Shown here piece by piece: positions 1,243 through 59,013 of a stretch of DNA of 64,000 nucleotides (position 1 is its first letter; each line of letters starts with the position of its first letter). Source of the stretch: Apostichopus japonicus (taxonomy: Eukaryota > Echinodermata > Holothuroidea > Aspidochirotida > Stichopodidae). A program made the translations under genes and the position numbers. The stretch lies in assembly GCF_037975245.1 (NCBI RefSeq), contig NC_092563.1, positions 3,791,001-3,855,000 on the forward strand, in the 5' to 3' direction. Below the pieces are notes generated by a model that saw only the letters and a program-made list of their open reading frames with translations, did no database searches and was not told the DNA's origin.

Positions 1243-1340
1243 GTTATATGAGGTGAGTACGTCGCTCGTTAATTCACAAACCGGTTAAGGTTTGGGGAAT
1301 TCACAGCGCGTACTCCCTCACCTCATATAACCTATGCATT
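1243..1340. repeat. DIRS internal complementary region
   Basis: The first half (to about 1300) is the reverse complement of the outermost left end (about 767-823). The second half (about 1299-1340) is the reverse complement of the outermost right end (about 6849-6889). This head-to-head copy of both ends is diagnostic of DIRS elements and is thought to template completion of the circular DNA intermediate. The recombinase frame ends inside it. Confidence 0.92.
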
Positions 1341-2402
1341 TGTGACACAGGAGCCCTGGCGGTGGGTCGAGGATCTCGCGGGCGGCGGACCTAGGGCCGC
1401 TCGGGCAAAATCCCCTTCCGTGGCAGGGGTGTTTGTGAGATAACAGGCGACAAAGGAAGACGGGGTCTTCCAGGCCGCCGCCTTCATAATATCTTCCAGG
1501 GGAACCCCCCGGAACCACGCCCTGGACGTGGCGTGGCCTCGGACGTCGTGCGCCCGGACGGGTTCCCCAGGCTGGGTGTGGGCACGAATTAAGTCGGCCA
1601 TCCACCGTGAAATGGTGTCCTTTGAGGCCGGGGTGTAGGGCGACCGCGGTAAAATGAAGAGCCTGTCCGAGGTACGTAGCTGTTTGGTCCTCTCTATGTA
1701 CCACTTAAGGGCTCGGACAGGGCACCAGCGCTTGTCTTCCGCGATTGACGAGGCTTGTGACAGACTCGGTAGGAAGATCTCGTTCGGGGTAAAGGTTACT
1801 GATTGGTTCTTTGGGAGGAAGTGAGGGTCAGGTAGTAATCTGACTCCTCCTGGTTCGAACCTCGTGAACCCCCGTTGGAGGGTGAGCGCGTGGAGACAGC
1901 TTCTGCGCCTGGCAGAGGCGGCCGCGATCAGAAACAGAGTTTTGTGTGTTAGTTTGTCCAATGGAGCATTGTGTAACGGCTCGTACGGAGAGCCCGCAAG
2001 GGTCGTCAGGACCTCGTGGAGGGCCCATGACGGGGCCAGGCGGCGCCTGGGAGGGCGTCTGTGGAACATGCCCCTTAAGACCTGGCGGAGGACCGGGTTG
2101 GTTCCTACTGAGGAGCCATCCGAGAATCCGCTGTGAACCGCTGCTATTGCGGAGCGGTAATTTCTAATTGTACTTATTTGCTTCCCTTCTCGGAAGAGTT
2201 CGAGTAGGAAGGCCGCCACCTGGTCTACTGAGGCCTCCACGGGATCAGCAGCGTTGTCCCCGGCCCAAACATAGTATCGGTGCAGTCTAGAATCGTATGT
2301 TTTAACCGTGGACTGCCGGCGGGCATCCACTGCAATGTCCGCAACCTCCGGTGGAAACCCCGCTGTCTGGAGCGAGAGCCGGAGAGTTTCCACGCAGCTA
2401 GA
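1332..2402 (-). CDS. DIRS tyrosine recombinase (integrase-like)
   Basis: This frame encodes the tyrosine recombinase that would insert the circular DNA copy. I place the meaningful part at about 356 residues, beginning near 2402, because upstream the same open frame runs antisense-like over the RT frame and loses family character. An SAM-like N-terminal core-binding part (about residues 20-115) is followed by the catalytic domain. The visible catalytic set is an Arg cluster (about 165-167, in ARRRS), His285-Asp-Val-Arg288, Trp311 where many relatives have a second His, and the nucleophile candidate Tyr321 in VACYL. The start overlaps the end of the RT frame by about 178 bp in another frame, so expression probably uses internal initiation, splicing or frameshifting; the exact start is not resolved. 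The stop lies within the internal complementary region. Confidence 0.88.
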   Translation of the reverse strand, partial: SSCVETLRLSLQTAGFPPEVADIAVDARRQSTVKTYDSRLHRYYVWAGDNAADPVEASVDQVAAFLLELFREGKQISTIRNYRSAIAAVHSGFSDGSSVGTNPVLRQVLRGMFHRRPPRRRLAPSWALHEVLTTLAGSPYEPLHNAPLDKLTHKTLFLIAAASARRRSCLHALTLQRGFTRFEPGGVRLLPDPHFLPKNQSVTFTPNEIFLPSLSQASSIAEDKRWCPVRALKWYIERTKQLRTSDRLFILPRSPYTPASKDTISRWMADLIRAHTQPGEPVRAHDVRGHATSRAWFRGVPLEDIMKAAAWKTPSSFVACYLTNTPATEGDFARAALGPPPARSSTHRQGSCVTNA

Positions 2403-4492
2403 TGGAGGCTCGTGATGTCGGGGTGGGTTATGTGGCCGCTCCGTTGGGAGAGGAGCTTGGCGGCCGGTGGGAATTTGTATGGTAGGTCTACCAGCATTTC
2501 GATGATGAGTGGGAACCATGCTTGATTGGGCCAGCAAGGTGCGATCAAAAGCATGTCCGCTTCCACGTCCCGAAGCATCGTGAGAATTCTGCGGAGTAAT
2601 CCCAGTGGGGGAAAGGCGTACATGGAGAGGCCCGCCCATGAGACGACTAGGGCGTCGGTCTTCCAGGCCTGCGGGTCGTGGTATCTGGAGCAGAACGTCG
2701 GGAGTTTGGCGTTCTTGGCCGTCGCGAACATGTCGACGGACGGCCTGCCGAACAGGTGGAATATGTGGTCGGACCACGTTCGGGAGAGCTCCCATTCCCC
2801 ATTGTCTAGATACCCCCTGGACAGTGCGTCTGCCAGTATATTGTCTTTCCCTGCTAGGTGGGACGCCCGTAGGCCGATCCGAAGGGAGTCGCAGAGGACG
2901 AGCAGGTCCCATGTCCTGCGTAGGAGGGCCAGGGATCGAGTGCCCCCTTGACGGTTGATATACGCCACGGTCGTGGTGTTGTCTGACCGGACCGTGACAG
3001 TGTGGCCCGTTAGGTGGGTTGCCCAGTGACGTACGGCCCTCAGGACCGCTTCCGTCTCTAAAATATTGATATGGAGACCCCTCTCGGGCTCCGCCCATTC
3101 GCCGGCAACTGTGTGTGTGCCCCATACCGCTCCCCAGCCGCTGAGGGAGGCATCCGTCGTGATCGACGTTGTAGGGGCTGGGTTCCGGAAAGGTCGCCCT
3201 GCCGCGATCCTGTCCGACTCTGCCCACCACGTGAGAAACGGGCGAAGCCCCGTTGGAAGTGGGATTGGCGTTGCCGCCGACGACCGATCCGGGGCATAGT
3301 GTTTGAGGAGGTGCCGCTGGAGCGGCCTCATTCTGAGTCTGCACAGGTCTAGAAGGTCTGTGAAGCTCGCCATCTTCCCCAATAGGCGCTGCCACGTGAG
3401 CGCTGGGGTATTCCGATTGCCTAGTATTTTTCTGGCCGTGGCCACTAGGCTTGCCGTTCTTTCGGCCGTCGGGTAGACCATGCCGCTGGCGAGGTCGAGA
3501 CGGGCCCCTAAGTATATGATCGATTGGGTGGGCACGAGGTTGGATTTCTCGACATTGATTAACCACCCCAGTTTCGTCAGGAGGGAGACGGTGGCGTTTG
3601 TACTGGCGAGAGCCCCTTGTTGGGAGTTGCCGAGTACTAACCAATCGTCTAGGTAGGCGAACACCATTACCCCGTTTCGGCGGAGGTGAGCCAGGACCGC
3701 CCTTGTTACCCTGGTGAAAACCCTGGGTGCCGTGGAGAGGCCAAATGGTAGCGCTGTGAAGCGGTAATCTATGGCCTTGTACCTGAACGCGAGGAACCGC
3801 TGGTCCTCGAGTCGGATGGGGATATGTAGGTAGGCATCCTTTAGATCGACGGAGGATGCCCACATCCCTGGGCGCAGTAGGTGGAGGATTGATGTGAGAG
3901 TCTCCATCCTGAACCTCTCCGGTCGGATGAACCTCCTGTTGAGAGGTCTGAGGTTCAGGATGGGCCTCCAAGTCCCGTTCTTCTTCGGCGTGAGGAAGAA
4001 CGAGGACCGGAAGAGGGGGCCGTCCGCGTTTGCGGTGGTGACCCGCGTAATGGCGCCTTTTTTGAGAAGACTGTTGATCTCGTCTTCGAGGGCGGCCCGC
4101 TTTTCCGGTATCTCGGGTACTGGCGTGGTTGCGAAGAGGCCATATTGGGGTGGGGTAGACGAGAACTCTATCTCGTAGCCCCTTTTTACCACGTCCAGTA
4201 CCCAGGCTCCTGGGTCGATTTTCTCCCAGTGAGCCCAGAAAACTCTTAGTCGCCCCCCCACCTTGGCCTTGGCCGCTACGGTGGGGTGGGCATCCCTAGG
4301 GCCGTTTACCGCGCCCGCGGCTTCCGCGGCTTCCGCGGTATTGCGGGCGGTACGGCCTGTGTTCGGGCCGCGAAGGAGCGGAATGCGTTCGCGGAGCGCC
4401 CCGACTCTGACTGTAGCTGGATCTTGAGCGGCTACCTTGTCTTGAGTCAAAACGTGGGCGCGAGGATGAGGTCGGGCGGGACATATGCTCAT
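2225..4492 (-). CDS. DIRS reverse transcriptase / RNase H polyprotein
   Basis: The 755-residue frame is intact. The RT domain spans about residues 105-330, with VDLKDAY (215-221), LPFGLSTAP (248-256) and the active-site YLDD (280-283). An RNase H domain follows (about 440-560), with the acidic residues Asp447, Glu479, Asp504 and Asp555 in TTDAS, ILETEA, RSDN and ADALS contexts. Residues 565-700 form a further conserved DIRS block (VDMFATAKNAKLP, then a WSWAGL-like and a PCWPNQAWF stretch); many DIRS elements place a Dam-like methyltransferase here, but I see no clear catalytic motif for it. The N-terminus overlaps the Gag frame by 197 bp, and the first about 85 residues are low in family signal, so the true start may be further in. 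Confidence 0.93.
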   Translation of the reverse strand: MSICPARPHPRAHVLTQDKVAAQDPATVRVGALRERIPLLRGPNTGRTARNTAEAAEAAGAVNGPRDAHPTVAAKAKVGGRLRVFWAHWEKIDPGAWVLDVVKRGYEIEFSSTPPQYGLFATTPVPEIPEKRAALEDEINSLLKKGAITRVTTANADGPLFRSSFFLTPKKNGTWRPILNLRPLNRRFIRPERFRMETLTSILHLLRPGMWASSVDLKDAYLHIPIRLEDQRFLAFRYKAIDYRFTALPFGLSTAPRVFTRVTRAVLAHLRRNGVMVFAYLDDWLVLGNSQQGALASTNATVSLLTKLGWLINVEKSNLVPTQSIIYLGARLDLASGMVYPTAERTASLVATARKILGNRNTPALTWQRLLGKMASFTDLLDLCRLRMRPLQRHLLKHYAPDRSSAATPIPLPTGLRPFLTWWAESDRIAAGRPFRNPAPTTSITTDASLSGWGAVWGTHTVAGEWAEPERGLHINILETEAVLRAVRHWATHLTGHTVTVRSDNTTTVAYINRQGGTRSLALLRRTWDLLVLCDSLRIGLRASHLAGKDNILADALSRGYLDNGEWELSRTWSDHIFHLFGRPSVDMFATAKNAKLPTFCSRYHDPQAWKTDALVVSWAGLSMYAFPPLGLLRRILTMLRDVEADMLLIAPCWPNQAWFPLIIEMLVDLPYKFPPAAKLLSQRSGHITHPDITSLHLAAWKLSGSRSRQRGFHRRLRTLQWMPAGSPRLKHTILDCTDTMFGPGTTLLIPWRPQ

Positions 4493-6212
4493 CCGCCTCC
4501 CTCAGAGACTTCATCCTCTCTGCCTCCTCCCGGAGTTTGTCATCGAACTTGCCGCCGAAGAGGTCGCTGCCCAGGATCGGTAAGTTGCGGAACGCGTCCG
4601 CCGTGGATCTGGACGACCAATTCAGGGAGTTCAGAACCAGGTCCCGACGTGTCAAGGTAGCCTTAACCGAGACGCGGGCGAACTGGTCTAATACCATCCT
4701 GGAAACGGGTCCCAGGAGGGCAATGATGGCGGCGGTATCTTTGCGGGAGATACCCGATGCCTGGGCCTGTTGGAACGATCTGTTCAATAGCTCGGCGAAA
4801 AGTAATAGGGCTGACGAGTACTTCATCCCTGCGCGGGAGGCCCTATCTACGTCGAACAGGGAGGATTCTAGGGTCTGTGCACCCTTCTCCCTGAACTTGT
4901 CTTTGCCGTCTAAGGCACCCGCCGACCGAAGTCTCTCCTTCACTTGAGGCGGGATTTGGGGTGGCGTGAAAAGACTTTCCCAGTCTTCGTCGCCCACGTG
5001 GAAAGTGCGATGGGCTGATCGCTGGAAGGCTGTCCAGCGTTTCGCCTGTGCCACCGCCTCGAACCGCTCTCTACATTCCACATCCACCGGGATGGAGGCT
5101 CGAGGCTTTTGGGTGGCCGCGTTCAAAGTGAGTTTGGATGCCGGCCCCTCGTGGGCCCGCGCATCCACCCTTTCCTCGAAGCCGAGGACTCTGCGGAGTA
5201 CTGCCGTCGCCTTCTCAAAGGCTTCCGCCGAAATTTCTGTACCCCGTAAGGGTTCTTCATCCTCCGCCTCGGAGTCTCCACTGAGGAGGCGGGCACTAGC
5301 TGCGATTGACAGCGCATCATCAGCTCTGGAGGAGACGTCGTCCCAGGGATCTGCCTGGGCCTCCTCAGGGGCGAGATCGTCCGTAACCGGTGCTGGCGGT
5401 GGCGCCGGTTGTGGTGGAATTGACGGAGCCCCTTGTTGTTCCGGGTCCTGTTGACTCGGCTTTTGTAGCAATTGTCCCAGGAGGTCTTTAACCTGGGAAA
5501 GGAGAGCCTGCCCCGGATCTGGGGATTGTCTCCTCTTTCGTTTCTTGGCCCTGTGTCGCCCAGAAGAATGTCCGCTCGAGGACGAGGGCGACGAGCCAGA
5601 CCTCGACCTGCGTCGAGGTCGCCGGTGTCTTTCCCGGCTCCTACCGCGGCTACGGCTGTGGGTACGGCTTCTGCTTCGGCTTTGGCGCCGTTCCGTACTC
5701 TCCGGGGAGAACCCCGAGAAATCTCTCCGGTTGTGGTCCCACGACCCCGGAGTTGAAGTAAATAAGTCCGCCACCGCTTGTCTTCGGGGGCTTCTGGACT
5801 CCACGTGGCCTGAAGTGGACGGACCCTCCTGGGGTCGCGGCCGTGGCTGAGCTGACGCCGCACGGGAATTAGCTCCATCTCGTATGGATACCCGTTCCTG
5901 AGGAGGGTTTGAGCCATCTCGTATGGCGCCCTCCGTTCCCCCATGTTTAGGGCTTATGCCATCTCTTATGGCCGCCTGGGGTTCCTTCGCCGGCGGCTTC
6001 TTTTTCCCCTGCTTTGAGGAAGCCGCCTTCTTTCTTTTTTCTGCGGCTTTATCCGCCAGCCAGGTACCGATCAAATCCCAGCGCTCCTGGGTCCAGTCCT
6101 GGCAAATGGAGCAGGTCTGCTTACTCCCGCATGGGCGACACTTTGGGCATAAATCATGCTTATCCCATGCTTTGAACGGACGGAACTGCTTACAAGAACG
6201 GCAGTTTTCCAT
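4296..6212 (-). CDS. DIRS Gag-like ORF1 protein
   Basis: This is the first frame of the element, 638 residues, starting 565 bp inside the right terminal repeat. The N-terminus carries closely spaced Cys residues (C4, C7, C22, C25, C28, C34, C37), suggesting a zinc-binding head. A Lys-rich stretch (about 55-75) follows, then three copies of an IRDG-containing segment (AIRDG, AIRDG, SIRDG) and a strongly Arg/Ser-rich zone. An acidic hinge leads into a more globular C-terminal half, and the last residues are Arg/Gly/Tyr-rich. The role, packaging element RNA, is inferred from position and composition. A run of about 20 T on the plus strand lies directly upstream of the start codon. Confidence 0.8.
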   Translation of the reverse strand: MENCRSCKQFRPFKAWDKHDLCPKCRPCGSKQTCSICQDWTQERWDLIGTWLADKAAEKRKKAASSKQGKKKPPAKEPQAAIRDGISPKHGGTEGAIRDGSNPPQERVSIRDGANSRAASAQPRPRPQEGPSTSGHVESRSPRRQAVADLFTSTPGSWDHNRRDFSGFSPESTERRQSRSRSRTHSRSRGRSRERHRRPRRRSRSGSSPSSSSGHSSGRHRAKKRKRRQSPDPGQALLSQVKDLLGQLLQKPSQQDPEQQGAPSIPPQPAPPPAPVTDDLAPEEAQADPWDDVSSRADDALSIAASARLLSGDSEAEDEEPLRGTEISAEAFEKATAVLRRVLGFEERVDARAHEGPASKLTLNAATQKPRASIPVDVECRERFEAVAQAKRWTAFQRSAHRTFHVGDEDWESLFTPPQIPPQVKERLRSAGALDGKDKFREKGAQTLESSLFDVDRASRAGMKYSSALLLFAELLNRSFQQAQASGISRKDTAAIIALLGPVSRMVLDQFARVSVKATLTRRDLVLNSLNWSSRSTADAFRNLPILGSDLFGGKFDDKLREEAERMKSLREADEHMSRPTSSSRPRFDSRQGSRSRSSYSQSRGAPRTHSAPSRPEHRPYRPQYRGSRGSRGRGKRP

Positions 6213-41200: not shown

Positions 41201-41703
41201 GATAATCCTCTCCTTCCCAACCACTCACCTGCCCCTTGCAGCAAAAGATGGGGAGGAAATGTTGGCTAAACATTAAGTAGTGCAGATGCCTTAGACTCTT
41301 TGCATATGCACCAGTGAATTCCAACCAACCCATCCTTAACATAAAAGATGAGTTTGGTTATGACCATGCCCCCTCATCACCACCACACTTGACTTGTCAT
41401 ATTGGAGACTTGTCATTTAGTACTATTTCTCAGAGTTAGTGCCCCACATTTATCACTCAAGAAATTTACTTTGGTGGGTTTCATATCTAAAATGTGAGTA
41501 AATGAGAAATCACTAGAGTTAACAATATTTGTGTAGACATGCATGTTCATTACGGGAAGGAATTTTAGCCTGTGCTGTCTACTCAAAAAGTGTAAACTTA
41601 ACTTGATTCAGCCAGATCTTGTGAACTTAATGTTGCACACTCACACTGGAAAAACTGATGGAACGACAAAGTTTTTTTTTATAACTTTTATTTTTTGGTT
41701 CAG
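38201..41703. other. Non-coding region upstream of the plus-strand RRM gene
   Basis: Presumed promoter, 5' UTR exon(s) and first intron of the plus RRM gene; the exon(s) cannot be placed. A diverged direct duplication of T-rich sequence sits at 39366-39715. Confidence 0.4.
39366..39715. repeat. Diverged direct duplication with poly-T
   Basis: A run of T, then TTCCTAGAC(T/A)TCTTTTTTG and, later, TGAA(G/C)TT and GGT(G/A)AGTA, occurs at about 39366-39470 and again at about 39606-39715. The copies differ clearly. Confidence 0.5.
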
Positions 41704-41737
41704 TTTTTTAAACCAATATTTCAAAGTGAATCCAAAT

Positions 41738-44700
41738 ATGAATCGCCCACCATTCATGGGGATGGCAGCCAGAAATGCTGGTGTAGGCTACAAAGCTCCT
41801 GTTGGGAAAATGACAAATAACCAGGATCCAAAGTCCAAAGCATCTCGTGTGTTCGTCGGGAACCTGAACACGGGGGAAATTAACGATCAGCAGCTGTACA
41901 AGATCTTCGCAGTGTATGGAATGATCACAGATGTCTCTACCATCAACGGCTTTGGATTTGTCCAGTTTGACAAAATAGAGGATGCTCAAGAGGCGGTTCG
42001 TAGAGAGCAAGGACGAGTGGTGGGAGATCAACCAATGGGTTAGTAGCAGTTATCAATTTCATTTCCTAGAGGTTTCTCTGTGAGGGTATCCAAACAGCAT
42101 GGTGCGAAGTGTACCATCAGCCACGTGTGTTTTCTTGTGGACATTTCCACAAAATTTCGGTGGGGGATTTTTACATTCGGTCTTGGAAGCATTAGACCCC
42201 TCCAACATGCTTCCATAAAGGTTCATTAGTACCATTTACCATGTATGTTAAGAAGTTTGTCAACTGTATTTTTAAGTGATATTTACATTGTTTTGTACGC
42301 TGTTAGTATTAAAAAACGTGGTAGTTGATTGAACTGTCAGTACTCAAAGACAAAGGAATTCTAATCACGCTCGTTATCTTCACTATGTATGAATTTGGTT
42401 TGCAGATTTGAGCATTGCTAACAACCCAAATCCGACAAGACCCAAAGGTTATAAGAGAGTTAACCAGCAGTTTGGATTCACGTAAGTGCAACTATTTAAT
42501 ATTCTCAGGGTTTACATCAACTTGAAAATGTCCCTGTGATGCATCTTCTCCTAGTATTTGACCGGTGTATTGACTCTATTGATGTACAATGCTTGCATAA
42601 TGTGTCTACTGGCTACCTGTATTAGATGTGAAAACTATAAAAAAAAAAAATATTGAAATATATTTTTACCTAATTCTGTATCTGTTAATATATTTACTTT
42701 TTTTTGGCAAATTGTGTCAGTTAGATTAACTTTAAGGTTATAAAGTGTTTTCATGAGTGGGGAGGTTCTGTACAAGTGAACTTTCGTTTGCTTTTCCAGG
42801 TTGGAAATTATAGAATATGATTTGAATAATCATTTCTGAAAACAAGACATTTCTTCCAAAAGTCATTGTCTTTCAATCAATAATTATTCATCATTAATTA
42901 TGAAAGTTGTAAAAGAGAAGTAGTTCACGTTGTGTGTTTCATCAAAGCTAGGTTTACTTCGTATCGTGTGACAGTGTAGAACTCTTGACTTTCAACAGGT
43001 TAATCGATCAAGTTGTTTAATGTGCACATGTGAATTTTGTGAGGAAATTTGTTCATCCCATACAATATAATATATACTTTCTATATCTCATCAGGCCTGT
43101 CCAGAGGACGAATACACCAAGTGGCACTTTTGTGTAAGTTTTGCTACAGGTTTTGCCTACACTAGTAATGAATCATGTACCCAATTGATCAAGCAGTTCT
43201 GTGGAAATCGAATGCTGTGAAGATGACATTCCATAACAAAGCATTCAAACAAGTTCATCAAAAGTGAATTCTTCATTTTCAAAAGTTTTAATAAATTGTC
43301 AATGTAGAAAATCAGGCAAAGCAACTTAAATGCACACCATGAGTTGTCAAAAGGGAAATGTTGATATTTGTGAAGATTGCTTTTGAACCATTAAGGTTCC
43401 AATTTAGAAACTGATCAGATATTAACATTCTTCTTAAACTTTCAATACTATTTGGTGAAGTTACAATTTAGTTAAATGGTAATTGTTTATTTTATTGATA
43501 TCTTCCGTAGGCCATATGTGGACCCGTCACTGTTACCTGTGATTCCAGCTGCTAATTATGGTAACACCCAAAACAAAAAGATGCGATTCCAGTCAAATTC
43601 TCAAGTTGGCAAGGAACAGATAAGTGGAGATGGTAGGTCTAGTTTACATATTTATAAATATTTATGACTGGCAGAAACTCTCCACATTTTGTGTAAGTTT
43701 ATCAATTTAATCCTGTTTAGTGGAGGAGTAATGCTGTGGTCTATTTAAAAGAATAATTCAGAATACAATAGACCAAACTGCATTGCTTATCTGATTTACA
43801 GTTGGGGGAGAAATTTGACTCTTGAGGTAAAATTCCCAACCCTTAGAAATTATGAGAAGTATGAGTATACTTGAGTCATCATTCATTTTGTCTGAATTGT
43901 TCAAACTATGATAGAAGGCATCTCTCTATGGGTGCCTTTTGAAAATATTAATTAATTGCCCATTTTCCGAGACAAGAAATTCACCTAATTACCGTTTCTG
44001 CTAAGTTCGTCTGTGCGATCCACTGTTTACATGTGACATGAGGTCGTGTTATGTAGCAATACAAATTTAAATAGTTCATACAGATGTTAAAGCATCCATA
44101 GTGCTTGCTGTTGCAGAAGGTACCTTCTTCTAGAGACCTGTGACACTAAACAATAGTACAGTTTACAATCAAAAGGGTCATGTGTTACCTAACTTGATAC
44201 TGAAAGAAAGAACTGCAAGAGTGGATGAACAACATTTTGAAATCAATTTCCAAAAAATTTTATTTTCAAGTAATTTTACATGGTAAGAAATTCCGCAACT
44301 CACAGACGTCCCACTTCTGGTGGAATTATGTTGTGACTATAGTCGTCGTATGTAATCTGTTATTGGATTAAAGTTTGTTCATTGCAAGGATTACTGGAAG
44401 CATTGTAGTGAAAGAATGAAACTAGTTTTTCCTTTGGTCCCTGAAGAGGGAAGCGCAAAGAAAGAATCATGTTCAAACAGCCCGTTTGAATTGTATGGTG
44501 GCTTAATAGGAACATTGCAAAGGAAAAACATTTCAGAAAAATAGTCAAAATTTTGACTTATGAGGTATAAAATAAGTCACAATTTTGAAATAAAAAGTCA
44601 CTGTAGAATTGCAAGTGAAATCTGATGATGATTTACTTACTTATACTGGAGGTTGAACAGATAATTAAATCTTACAATTTATCTTTCTTTCTTTCTTTCA

Positions 44701-57379: not shown

Positions 57380-57578
57380 GGTCGGCGTAAAAAAGGTGGC
57401 GGAAAGTGAAGTGCTATGTGGAAGAGATTTGTTATGGTAAATGTCGAGGGCGCTATGAAGAAACGATGATCAGAGCCGTATCTCTTTATACCGCTCTGAC
57501 GACGATGCTTATCGCTGGGTTATGTTGTAGACATATATTTGTACTCTGGAAAAGCTTCTTGTTTCATTGGCATGACCG
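57380..57578 (-). promoter_or_regulatory. Short upstream region of gamma-SNAP
   Basis: Only about 200 bp separate the start codon from the foldback element, so the core promoter and 5' UTR probably lie here or the element has intruded into them. The stretch is richer in CG dinucleotides than its surroundings; no TATA box is evident. Confidence 0.35.
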
Positions 57579-58485
57579 TATGGCAAGCCGTTTTACTTTT
57601 TATTCAATATTTAATGGTATCTTTAATTATTTGATGATATCATTAAATCAATTGTTGATATCAAGAATTCGAATTGTTGATATCATTAAATCAATTAATG
57701 ATATCATTAATTCAATTCATTTCTTGATATCAATAATTCATTTAATGATATCATGAAATGAATTAGTGATATCAAGAAATGATTTAAAGATATCTTTAAA
57801 TGTATTTGTGATATGTACATATCACTAATTCGAATTATTGATATGTACATATCACTAATTCGAATTAGTGATATCATCAAATATGACGTCATATTTATTG
57901 ATATCACTAATTCGAATTAGTGATATGTACATATCATTAAATCGAATTAATTCGAATTATTGATATGTAAATATCATTAATTCAATTTAATGATATCAAC
58001 AAATATGACGTACATATCAAGAATTCGGCCATATTTAATGATATCATTAAATATGGCCGAATTCGTGATATGTACCTCATATTTGATGATATCATTAATT
58101 GGAATTTATGATATCATTAAATATGGCCGAATTCGTGATATGTACGTCATACTTTTTGATATCATAAATTTAAATACAGATATCTGAAATTGAATTTATG
58201 ATATCTTGAATTGAAATATTGATATCTATAAAAGTTCATCTATTTTAAGATATCACATATTCAATTCTTGATATCAGAAATTTTAATTATGATACCATCA
58301 AATAAGATAATGATATCAATAATTTCCTTGCACCAATTAAAGATATCTTTAATTAATTTAAGATATCATTAAAACAATTTCAGATATCATGAAATAATTC
58401 ATGATATCATTAAATAATTTTTGATATCATTAAATAATTGTTGATATCAATAAATACTGAATAAAAAATAAAATGGCTTGCCATA
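57579..58485. mobile_element. Foldback element built from GATATC palindromes, 6-bp target duplication
   Basis: Inverted ends of about 45 bp start TATGGCAAGCC on the left and close GGCTTGCCATA on the right, flanked by the direct repeat TGACCG (57573-57578, 58486-58491). The interior contains about 27 GATATC words, often 20 bp apart, plus AATTCGAATT, GATATGTACATATC and TGACGTCA palindromes. Around 58042 the two halves are reverse complements of each other over long distances. There is no coding capacity. The family is not one I recognise. Confidence 0.85.
58005..58080. repeat. Near-perfect 76-bp palindrome at the core of the foldback element
   Basis: 58021-58064 is a perfect 44-bp palindrome without spacer, running from GAATTCGGCC to GGCCGAATTC. 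It extends to 58005-58080 with two mismatched pairs, and with more mismatches to about 57971-58114. Confidence 0.92.
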
Positions 58486-58532
58486 TGACCGAAGCTATCC
58501 TGAAGTGAGGGAAGAAATGAGGTGGGGTGTAG

Positions 58533-58547
58533 TATGGCAAGCCGTTT
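58533..58547 (+). repeat. Solo copy of the foldback element end
   Basis: TATGGCAAGCCGTTT repeats the left end of the foldback element 48 bp beyond its right end. No matching second end was found to the right, so it may be a remnant of an earlier insertion. Confidence 0.6.
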
Positions 58548-59013
58548 AAACTTTGCCTCTCTATTTCGAAATATCGCCATTTCATTTTTTCAACCTACAA
58601 TTTCAATATGTACTTATTTAGGCTCAAACATTTTACTATATTGTCACCCACATTACAGTAACCTCTCAAAATATGCCCTTCTCTTCAAATGTCGACCTTG
58701 TCTCTCCAGCGATTTCGTTCCTTTTTTCTAAAGATATCACTTGGTTATTTCGAAAGTGTTGCGTTGCATATTGTGAATGAATATTTCAAGAGGATCACGA
58801 CATTTGCACATTAACTAATGAAATTTTGGCCTTCCTTGCAACATTTAGTAAAATTAATTTTCCCCATGCCCGCGGAGGATAAACAGCTACACAATTTCGT
58901 ATAATTATAACAATACTTTAAAGGTCTGAAATCGCGTTTTGTACCTAACGTGTGTCTAGAGAGGTCAAAACTATGTATCGAGCCGCCTGTACAGAGCCGC
59001 CTGTACAGAGATC
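58548..59013. other. Non-coding stretch, no feature seen
   Basis: Nothing coding; a short direct repeat GAGCCGCCTGTACAGA occurs twice at about 58980-59010. Confidence 0.4.

Follow-up and report, generated by a model that had tools for sequence, protein, structure and literature searches.

Phased palindromic arms in a foldback element of Apostichopus japonicus and its probable affiliation with IS3EU/GingerRoot-type DNA transposons

Introduction

Where does a short, gene-less foldback element come from, and what are its palindromes for? Foldback elements often have no known gene-bearing partner, and their origin and movement are therefore unclear. One such element lies in the window, i.e., the whole stretch of 64,000 nucleotides of A. 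japonicus DNA analysed here (C3:3791001-3855000). A first-pass annotation, made from the letters alone, had described it as a 907-bp insertion with a TGACCG target duplication and inverted ends, all of which were borne out by re-reading the sequence (Table 1). In this case a partner is present in the same genome, a superfamily can be assigned, and the arms lend themselves to an explanation as rows of probable transposase sites.

Table 1 Features of the window element (positions in the window) and of its gene-bearing partners (positions with contig or locus)
Feature	Location	Strand	Description
Mobile element	57579..58485	.	907 bp; arms-only, non-autonomous, probably IS3EU-type
Target duplication, left copy	57573..57578	.	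TGACCG, 6 bp
Target duplication, right copy	58486..58491	.	TGACCG, 6 bp
Left terminal sequence	57579..57595	+	TATGGCAAGCCGTTTTA
Right terminal sequence	58469..58485	-	reverse complement TATGGCAAGCCATTTTA
Left arm	57579..58145	+	aligns to left arm of C12 element (element 1-567, 84.6%); overlaps right arm
Right arm	58035..58485	-	aligns to right arm of C12 element (element 457-907, 94.5%)
GATATC words	57636..58448	.	n = 27; 16 of 26 spacings 20-22 bp
Perfect 44-bp palindrome	58021..58064 (element 443-486)	.	at or adjoining the presumed arm junction
GATATC-class gene-bearing element	C12:2785093-2802660		17,568 bp; both termini TATGGCAAGCC, flanked by CGCGCG left and right, a GATATC arm at either end
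CTTAAG-class gene-bearing element	C1:12260970-12283636		22.7 kb; flanked by CGGCCG, a CTTAAG arm at either end
HECT-domain ORF in CTTAAG-class C1 element	L041:1896-2981	opposite to integrase	PF00632 at 1.4e-11

Anatomy of the window element

The element begins with TATGGCAAGCC on the left and ends with its complement, in inverted orientation, on the right. The number of GATATC words (about 27 in the first-pass annotation, 27 by count) compares with a mean of 1.1 and a maximum of 5 in 1000 runs of order-1 resampling. Their regular phasing at about two helical turns is real; the step of 20 bp proposed for it is not the main one, as 21 bp occurs ten times among the 26 spacings, 20 bp four times and 22 bp twice. 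The perfect palindrome reported from the middle was located as well, and it sits at the start of the overlap (element 457-567) between the left-arm and right-arm matches to the C12 element.

The two halves are largely complementary, as had been noted: complementarity reaches 86% in the outermost 64 bp and is about 71-74% further in. As single-stranded DNA the element has a predicted folding energy of -250.5 kcal/mol, versus -90.5 (sd 4.2) in 20 shuffles. The idea of a single long hairpin holds for the two ends, which pair together in the predicted fold, but not for much of the middle, where pairing is local since every unit is complementary to itself. None of the nine open reading frames of at least 150 aa in the window overlaps the element, in agreement, for frames of that size, with the earlier statement that it codes for nothing.

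Related copies, target duplications and empty sites

The genome searched comprises 671,581,487 bp in 35 contigs. Full-length relatives of the window element were found on several contigs by DNA search (40 of 607 candidates scored), and the window copy shares 94.8-96.7% identity over aligned bases with the six copies that were aligned to it end to end. The copies carry flanking duplications of their own, namely CGTCCG (L002), ACGCCG (L003), CAGCCG (L007), CGACCG (L006) and AGGCCG, the last with an additional TA on its left side (L004); the flanks of L005 differ (CTCCCG vs CTCCCA), and the copy at L008 is without its other end.

The end pattern GTATGGCAAGCCRTTT has 424 exact matches genome-wide and none for the reversed control, and a longer pattern including the flank has 427, again with none for its control. 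Duplication and class counts rest on 100 ends listed of the 427 matches. These ends can plausibly be paired in 24 cases; the two copies of the 6-bp duplication are identical in 19, differ at one position in three and do not match in two, while mismatched end pairings, taken as control, gave identical 6-bp flanks in 8 of 552 cases. The 82 unique flanks of the listed ends have G at -5 in 66 and C at -2 in 68, and these preferences point to CGNNCG-like targets. Judged from the bases adjoining the end, 33 of the 100 listed ends are of GATATC type and 67 of CTTAAG type; one end sequence is common to arms built of GATATC units and arms built of CTTAAG units. Other copies with the same ends, by which the first-pass annotation had proposed to check its reading, are thus numerous.

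Empty sites were sought with the joined flanks of 13 elements (40 of 1462 candidates scored, 44 rows). For L013 (GATATC class), eight rows matched the complete joined junction at 93-100%; for L014 (CTTAAG class), 33 full-length rows did so at 96-99%, with a single base missing in one. The junction of L009 was spanned by one row at 92%, and no row among the candidates scored corresponded to the remaining 10 elements, the window element included. Because the empty junctions of L013 and L014 match, insertion is precise in the family of the window element; the proposal to look for empty sites was therefore answered by two related copies and not by the window copy itself. The mobile nature of the insertion had been made to depend on other copies or empty alleles with these ends, and since they exist it stands: the window element is a mobile element of a large family in its genome.

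Gene-bearing partners

A transposase gene with these ends, another thing that the earlier annotation had suggested looking for, is found in the C12 element, which combines the same ends with an rva_4 integrase. On one strand it has N-terminal, helix-turn-helix and middle exons together with an integrase core, which matches PF24764 (rva_4) at 3.3e-71; the matches of the helix-turn-helix exon to HTH models are all below cut-off. The core of the C1 element matches PF24764 at 3.1e-75, and HTH_7 is above its cut-off in the exons of C1 and L045. The D-D-E triad is present in all eight integrase cores examined, with a D2-E offset of 35. Comparison of the C12 core with solved structures returned two matches, both chance-level. 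The genome search with the integrase gave 90 rows, 38 of them on contig C17, where many contain stops.

The HECT ORF of the C1 element may be equivalent to the second gene found in IS3EU elements of rust fungi. Within the C12 element, a stretch of 69 aa from the second gene of C1 is matched at 32% (E 3e-10, 13 loci searched); a HECT domain was found there neither in the ORFs scanned nor by tblastn with the C1 HECT ORF.

Two further elements of about 9 kb, L009 and L010, have GATATC arms and an internal repeat of ~1 kb and are mutually 96.8% identical over 8.5 kb. We rejected them (9.1 kb) as the gene-bearing form, as the eight L009 ORFs scanned yielded one sub-threshold Pfam match only. A remnant of the N-terminal exon is kept in both.

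In its ends, its arms and its kind of duplication the window element is the same as the gene-bearing element, i.e., it almost certainly consists of the two arms joined.

Superfamily affiliation

An IS3EU/GingerRoot placement agrees with the termini, with the length of the duplication and with the partner's integrase. In complete IS3EU families the termini are always TA..TA and the duplications are usually of 6 bp, according to the part of the source available (PMC10045372), and rust-fungal IS3EU elements are described, in the accessible portion of the text, as having TAYGG..CCRTA ends and a transposase gene oriented oppositely to an alpha-kinase gene (PMC12730594). The window element and its relatives have TATGG..CCATA ends, the duplication is 6 bp long at the window element and in the identical pairs counted above, and both partners encode a DDE integrase-like transposase. 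As far as the accessible portions of these sources go, the likeness extends to a second gene in opposite orientation, an alpha-kinase in rust fungi and a HECT gene in the CTTAAG-class element here (PMC12730594), and may extend to an N-terminal helix-turn-helix in the transposase (PMC10045372, PMC12730594). The N-terminal region of IS3EU/GingerRoot transposases is helix-turn-helix-like and lacks an HHCC zinc motif. The window element itself has the properties of a MITE, being short and non-coding, with inverted ends and a duplication common to the gene-bearing partner. We conclude that it is very probably an arms-only non-autonomous derivative of an IS3EU/GingerRoot-type DNA transposon. The IS3EU-like fungal element Styx bears neither for nor against this reading in the part of its description that was available (PMC10853768).

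The first-pass annotation knew no described family of this make-up. At the level of superfamily this fails, since termini, duplication length and integrase fit a known one; the unusual part of the window element is its phased palindromic arms. Such arms and arms-only foldback derivatives, present here, are not mentioned for IS3EU in the accessible parts of two descriptions (PMC10045372, PMC12730594). No description of phased arrays in IS3EU was found in the open-access texts searched.

Several other affiliations were considered. Polinton/Maverick elements have 6-bp duplications too; a Polinton as source is unsupported by the rva_4 integrase, and no polymerase or capsid gene was matched among the subset of ORFs scanned. 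The TU foldback elements of sea urchin, also an echinoderm, carry short subrepeats in their arms and differ from the window element in having 15-bp repeats and 8-bp duplications. Tetris, a foldback element of Drosophila virilis, resembles the window element in being non-coding and in its long inverted ends with internal tandem repeats, and differs in having ~220-bp repeats, 8-10 bp duplications and no autonomous partner found by its authors, as far as the available text tells (PMC4079207). A Mutator-type foldback element of the Tetris kind was rejected, as duplications of 8-10 bp and a Mutator-type transposase would be expected, whereas we found 6 bp and an integrase-type partner. Galileo, in the accessible parts of its descriptions, is a foldback-like element of Drosophila from the P superfamily, with several THAP-domain binding sites in its long repetitive inverted ends (PMC3688188, PMC4079207). 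It belongs to another superfamily and has another transposase, in contrast to the window element with its 6-bp duplication and 20-bp palindromic unit; a P-type origin was rejected, as the C12 core is rva_4, the exons match HTH models and no THAP match was found in the C12 exons scanned.

Repeat unit of the arms

In seven arms (classes A1, A2, A3 and B) the unit has the form TT-nn-(8-bp palindrome)-nn-AA, the palindrome being TGATATCA in A1 and A2, AGATATCT in A3 and ACTTAAGT in B, and the mean unit step is 20.5-21.0 bp. TT and AA are kept in 83-100% of units and nn in 37-79%, with the exception of two nn positions of the A2 arm (96% and 85%). When spacer letters were shuffled within units (2000 runs), the result was never as uneven as observed in any of the seven arms. 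Mismatches to the majority in seven aligned copies amounted to 16/1240 in words, 5/411 in word-flanking bases, 19/827 in TT/AA and 20/825 at unit edges, compared with 49/823 in nn and 84/2270 elsewhere (word vs nn, p = 7e-9; TT/AA vs nn, p = 0.0002; TT/AA vs elsewhere, p = 0.055).

Near-invariant positions beside variable neighbours are read as the mark of sequence-specific contacts, and because of them we consider it moderately probable that the array units are family-specific transposase binding sites. Some of this unevenness could also stem from homogenisation of units. A role in mobilisation through protein binding, one of the two kinds of role that had been suggested from the helical spacing and the nested palindromes, is the best-supported reading in view of unit conservation, word excess and phasing, with the sites themselves being putative.

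Arrays in related integrase families

Fifteen regions were read: the C12 and C1 elements and L044-L056, the latter 13 upstream of the integrase only, over 6-9.6 kb. Independent families are fewer than that, because L045/L046, L054/L055 and C1/L050 are within-family pairs. Related families have phased subterminal arrays of other words, two of them with palindromes other than GATATC. Arms with 16-28 exact palindromic words occur in six of the 15 regions (C12, C1, L044, L045, L046 and L050); the words are GATATC in L045, in L046 and, as AGATATCT, in L044, and CTTAAG in L050. ACGCGT words were seen in L049 (four at 21 bp) and in L047 (two, 21 bp apart), and L048 has a near-palindromic array with a 22-bp step. 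The arrays of L053 (20 bp) and L054/L055 (18 bp) are non-palindromic, in L054/L055 lying directly behind the TATGG end. The 18-bp arrays rule out exact two-turn spacing as a rule. An array in every IS3EU-like integrase region is refuted by L052 and L056, where none was found on the side upstream of the integrase, and by L051 with its short 21-bp remnant. Ends beginning with TATGG were recognised in L044-L050, L054 and L055, and not on the upstream side read in L051, L052, L053 and L056.

The helix-turn-helix segments differ among families and are much alike in the two ACGCGT families. The two are close relatives (67% core identity), and for this reason the evidence for coevolution of the recognition helix is weak. 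At L047:5835-5960, upstream of the integrase, two outward-facing TATGGCAAGCCGTC ends lie 55 bp apart and are 97% inverted over 60 bp.

Alternative explanations of the arrays

The arrays might have no function in mobility at all: a short unit inside the ends may have multiplied in the manner of a satellite, the result being tolerated or else homogenised through unequal exchange. Such expansion comes easily to short tandem units, and unit number does differ among copies and families, but it would not by itself account for position-specific conservation in 7/7 arms and between copies, for the arrays that C12 and C1, the two gene-bearing elements examined at both ends, carry at either end, or for their presence in several families of unlike sequence, and we regard it as rather unlikely. 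Still less probable is that the palindromes act as structure, with single-strand hairpins or cruciforms driving excision or amplification and the words not being protein sites. The nested palindromes and the predicted fold, far stronger than in shuffles, would suit this explanation, as would the snap-back model of Izsvak and others for foldback elements and MITEs, in the part of the source available (PMC8268682). Base pairing alone, however, would not require an invariant TT/AA beside freely varying nn, and the arrays of L053 and L054/L055 are non-palindromic, those of L054/L055 lying at the end of the element.

Another possibility is that the element matters because it gives rise to small RNAs or long double-stranded RNA. 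If transcribed, it would fold strongly (as predicted with DNA parameters), but this leaves the position-specific constraint and the arrays in gene-bearing elements unexplained and appears very improbable. Rows of transposase binding sites, the reading preferred here, would make the hairpin potential a by-product of the palindromic form of the sites.

Proposed origin and movement

On this binding-site reading, the integrase would recognise the TATGGCAAGCC ends, and its helix-turn-helix domain would allow it to recognise the palindromic units as well. With a step of ~20.5-21 bp, successive sites would share one helix face, and dimers might line up along each arm; by analogy with what is reported for the Galileo THAP domain, binding to the arm units may be cooperative. 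Precise insertion at CGNNCG-like targets would leave the 6-bp duplication, as the duplications and empty sites of relatives suggest. The window element would have arisen from a gene-bearing element of 17-18 kb whose two arms became directly joined, perhaps by an internal deletion that used the microhomology of the units. As each unit is its own reverse complement, units that lie in opposite arms also repeat one another in direct orientation, and a deletion between them would account for the existence of arms-only copies as well as for the 44-bp palindrome close to the junction. We give this deletion route about even chances.

More tentatively, and with chances somewhat below even, IS3EU-type transposons may carry palindromic operators that are specific to the family and recur every two helical turns, in which the TT/AA frame is common to the GATATC and CTTAAG families and the central 8-bp word varies with the recognition helix of the transposase; a palindromic word would then give rise to foldback derivatives, as the arms come to share direct homology. 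Several related families with different words in one genome would make the coevolution of transposase and DNA site directly testable.

Other features of the window

A lone TATGGCAAGCCGTTTAA end lies at 58533-58549, 47 bp past the window element; it is most like the CTTAAG-class end, and no partner for it was found within the window. A retroelement at 1332-6212 on the minus strand has a reverse transcriptase (2.3e-21), an RNase H-like domain (5.5e-5) and a phage-integrase SAM-like domain just below threshold (1.8e-4), and it looks DIRS-like. The ORF at 41543-42043 on the plus strand encodes an RNA recognition motif (RRM_1, 2.3e-13).
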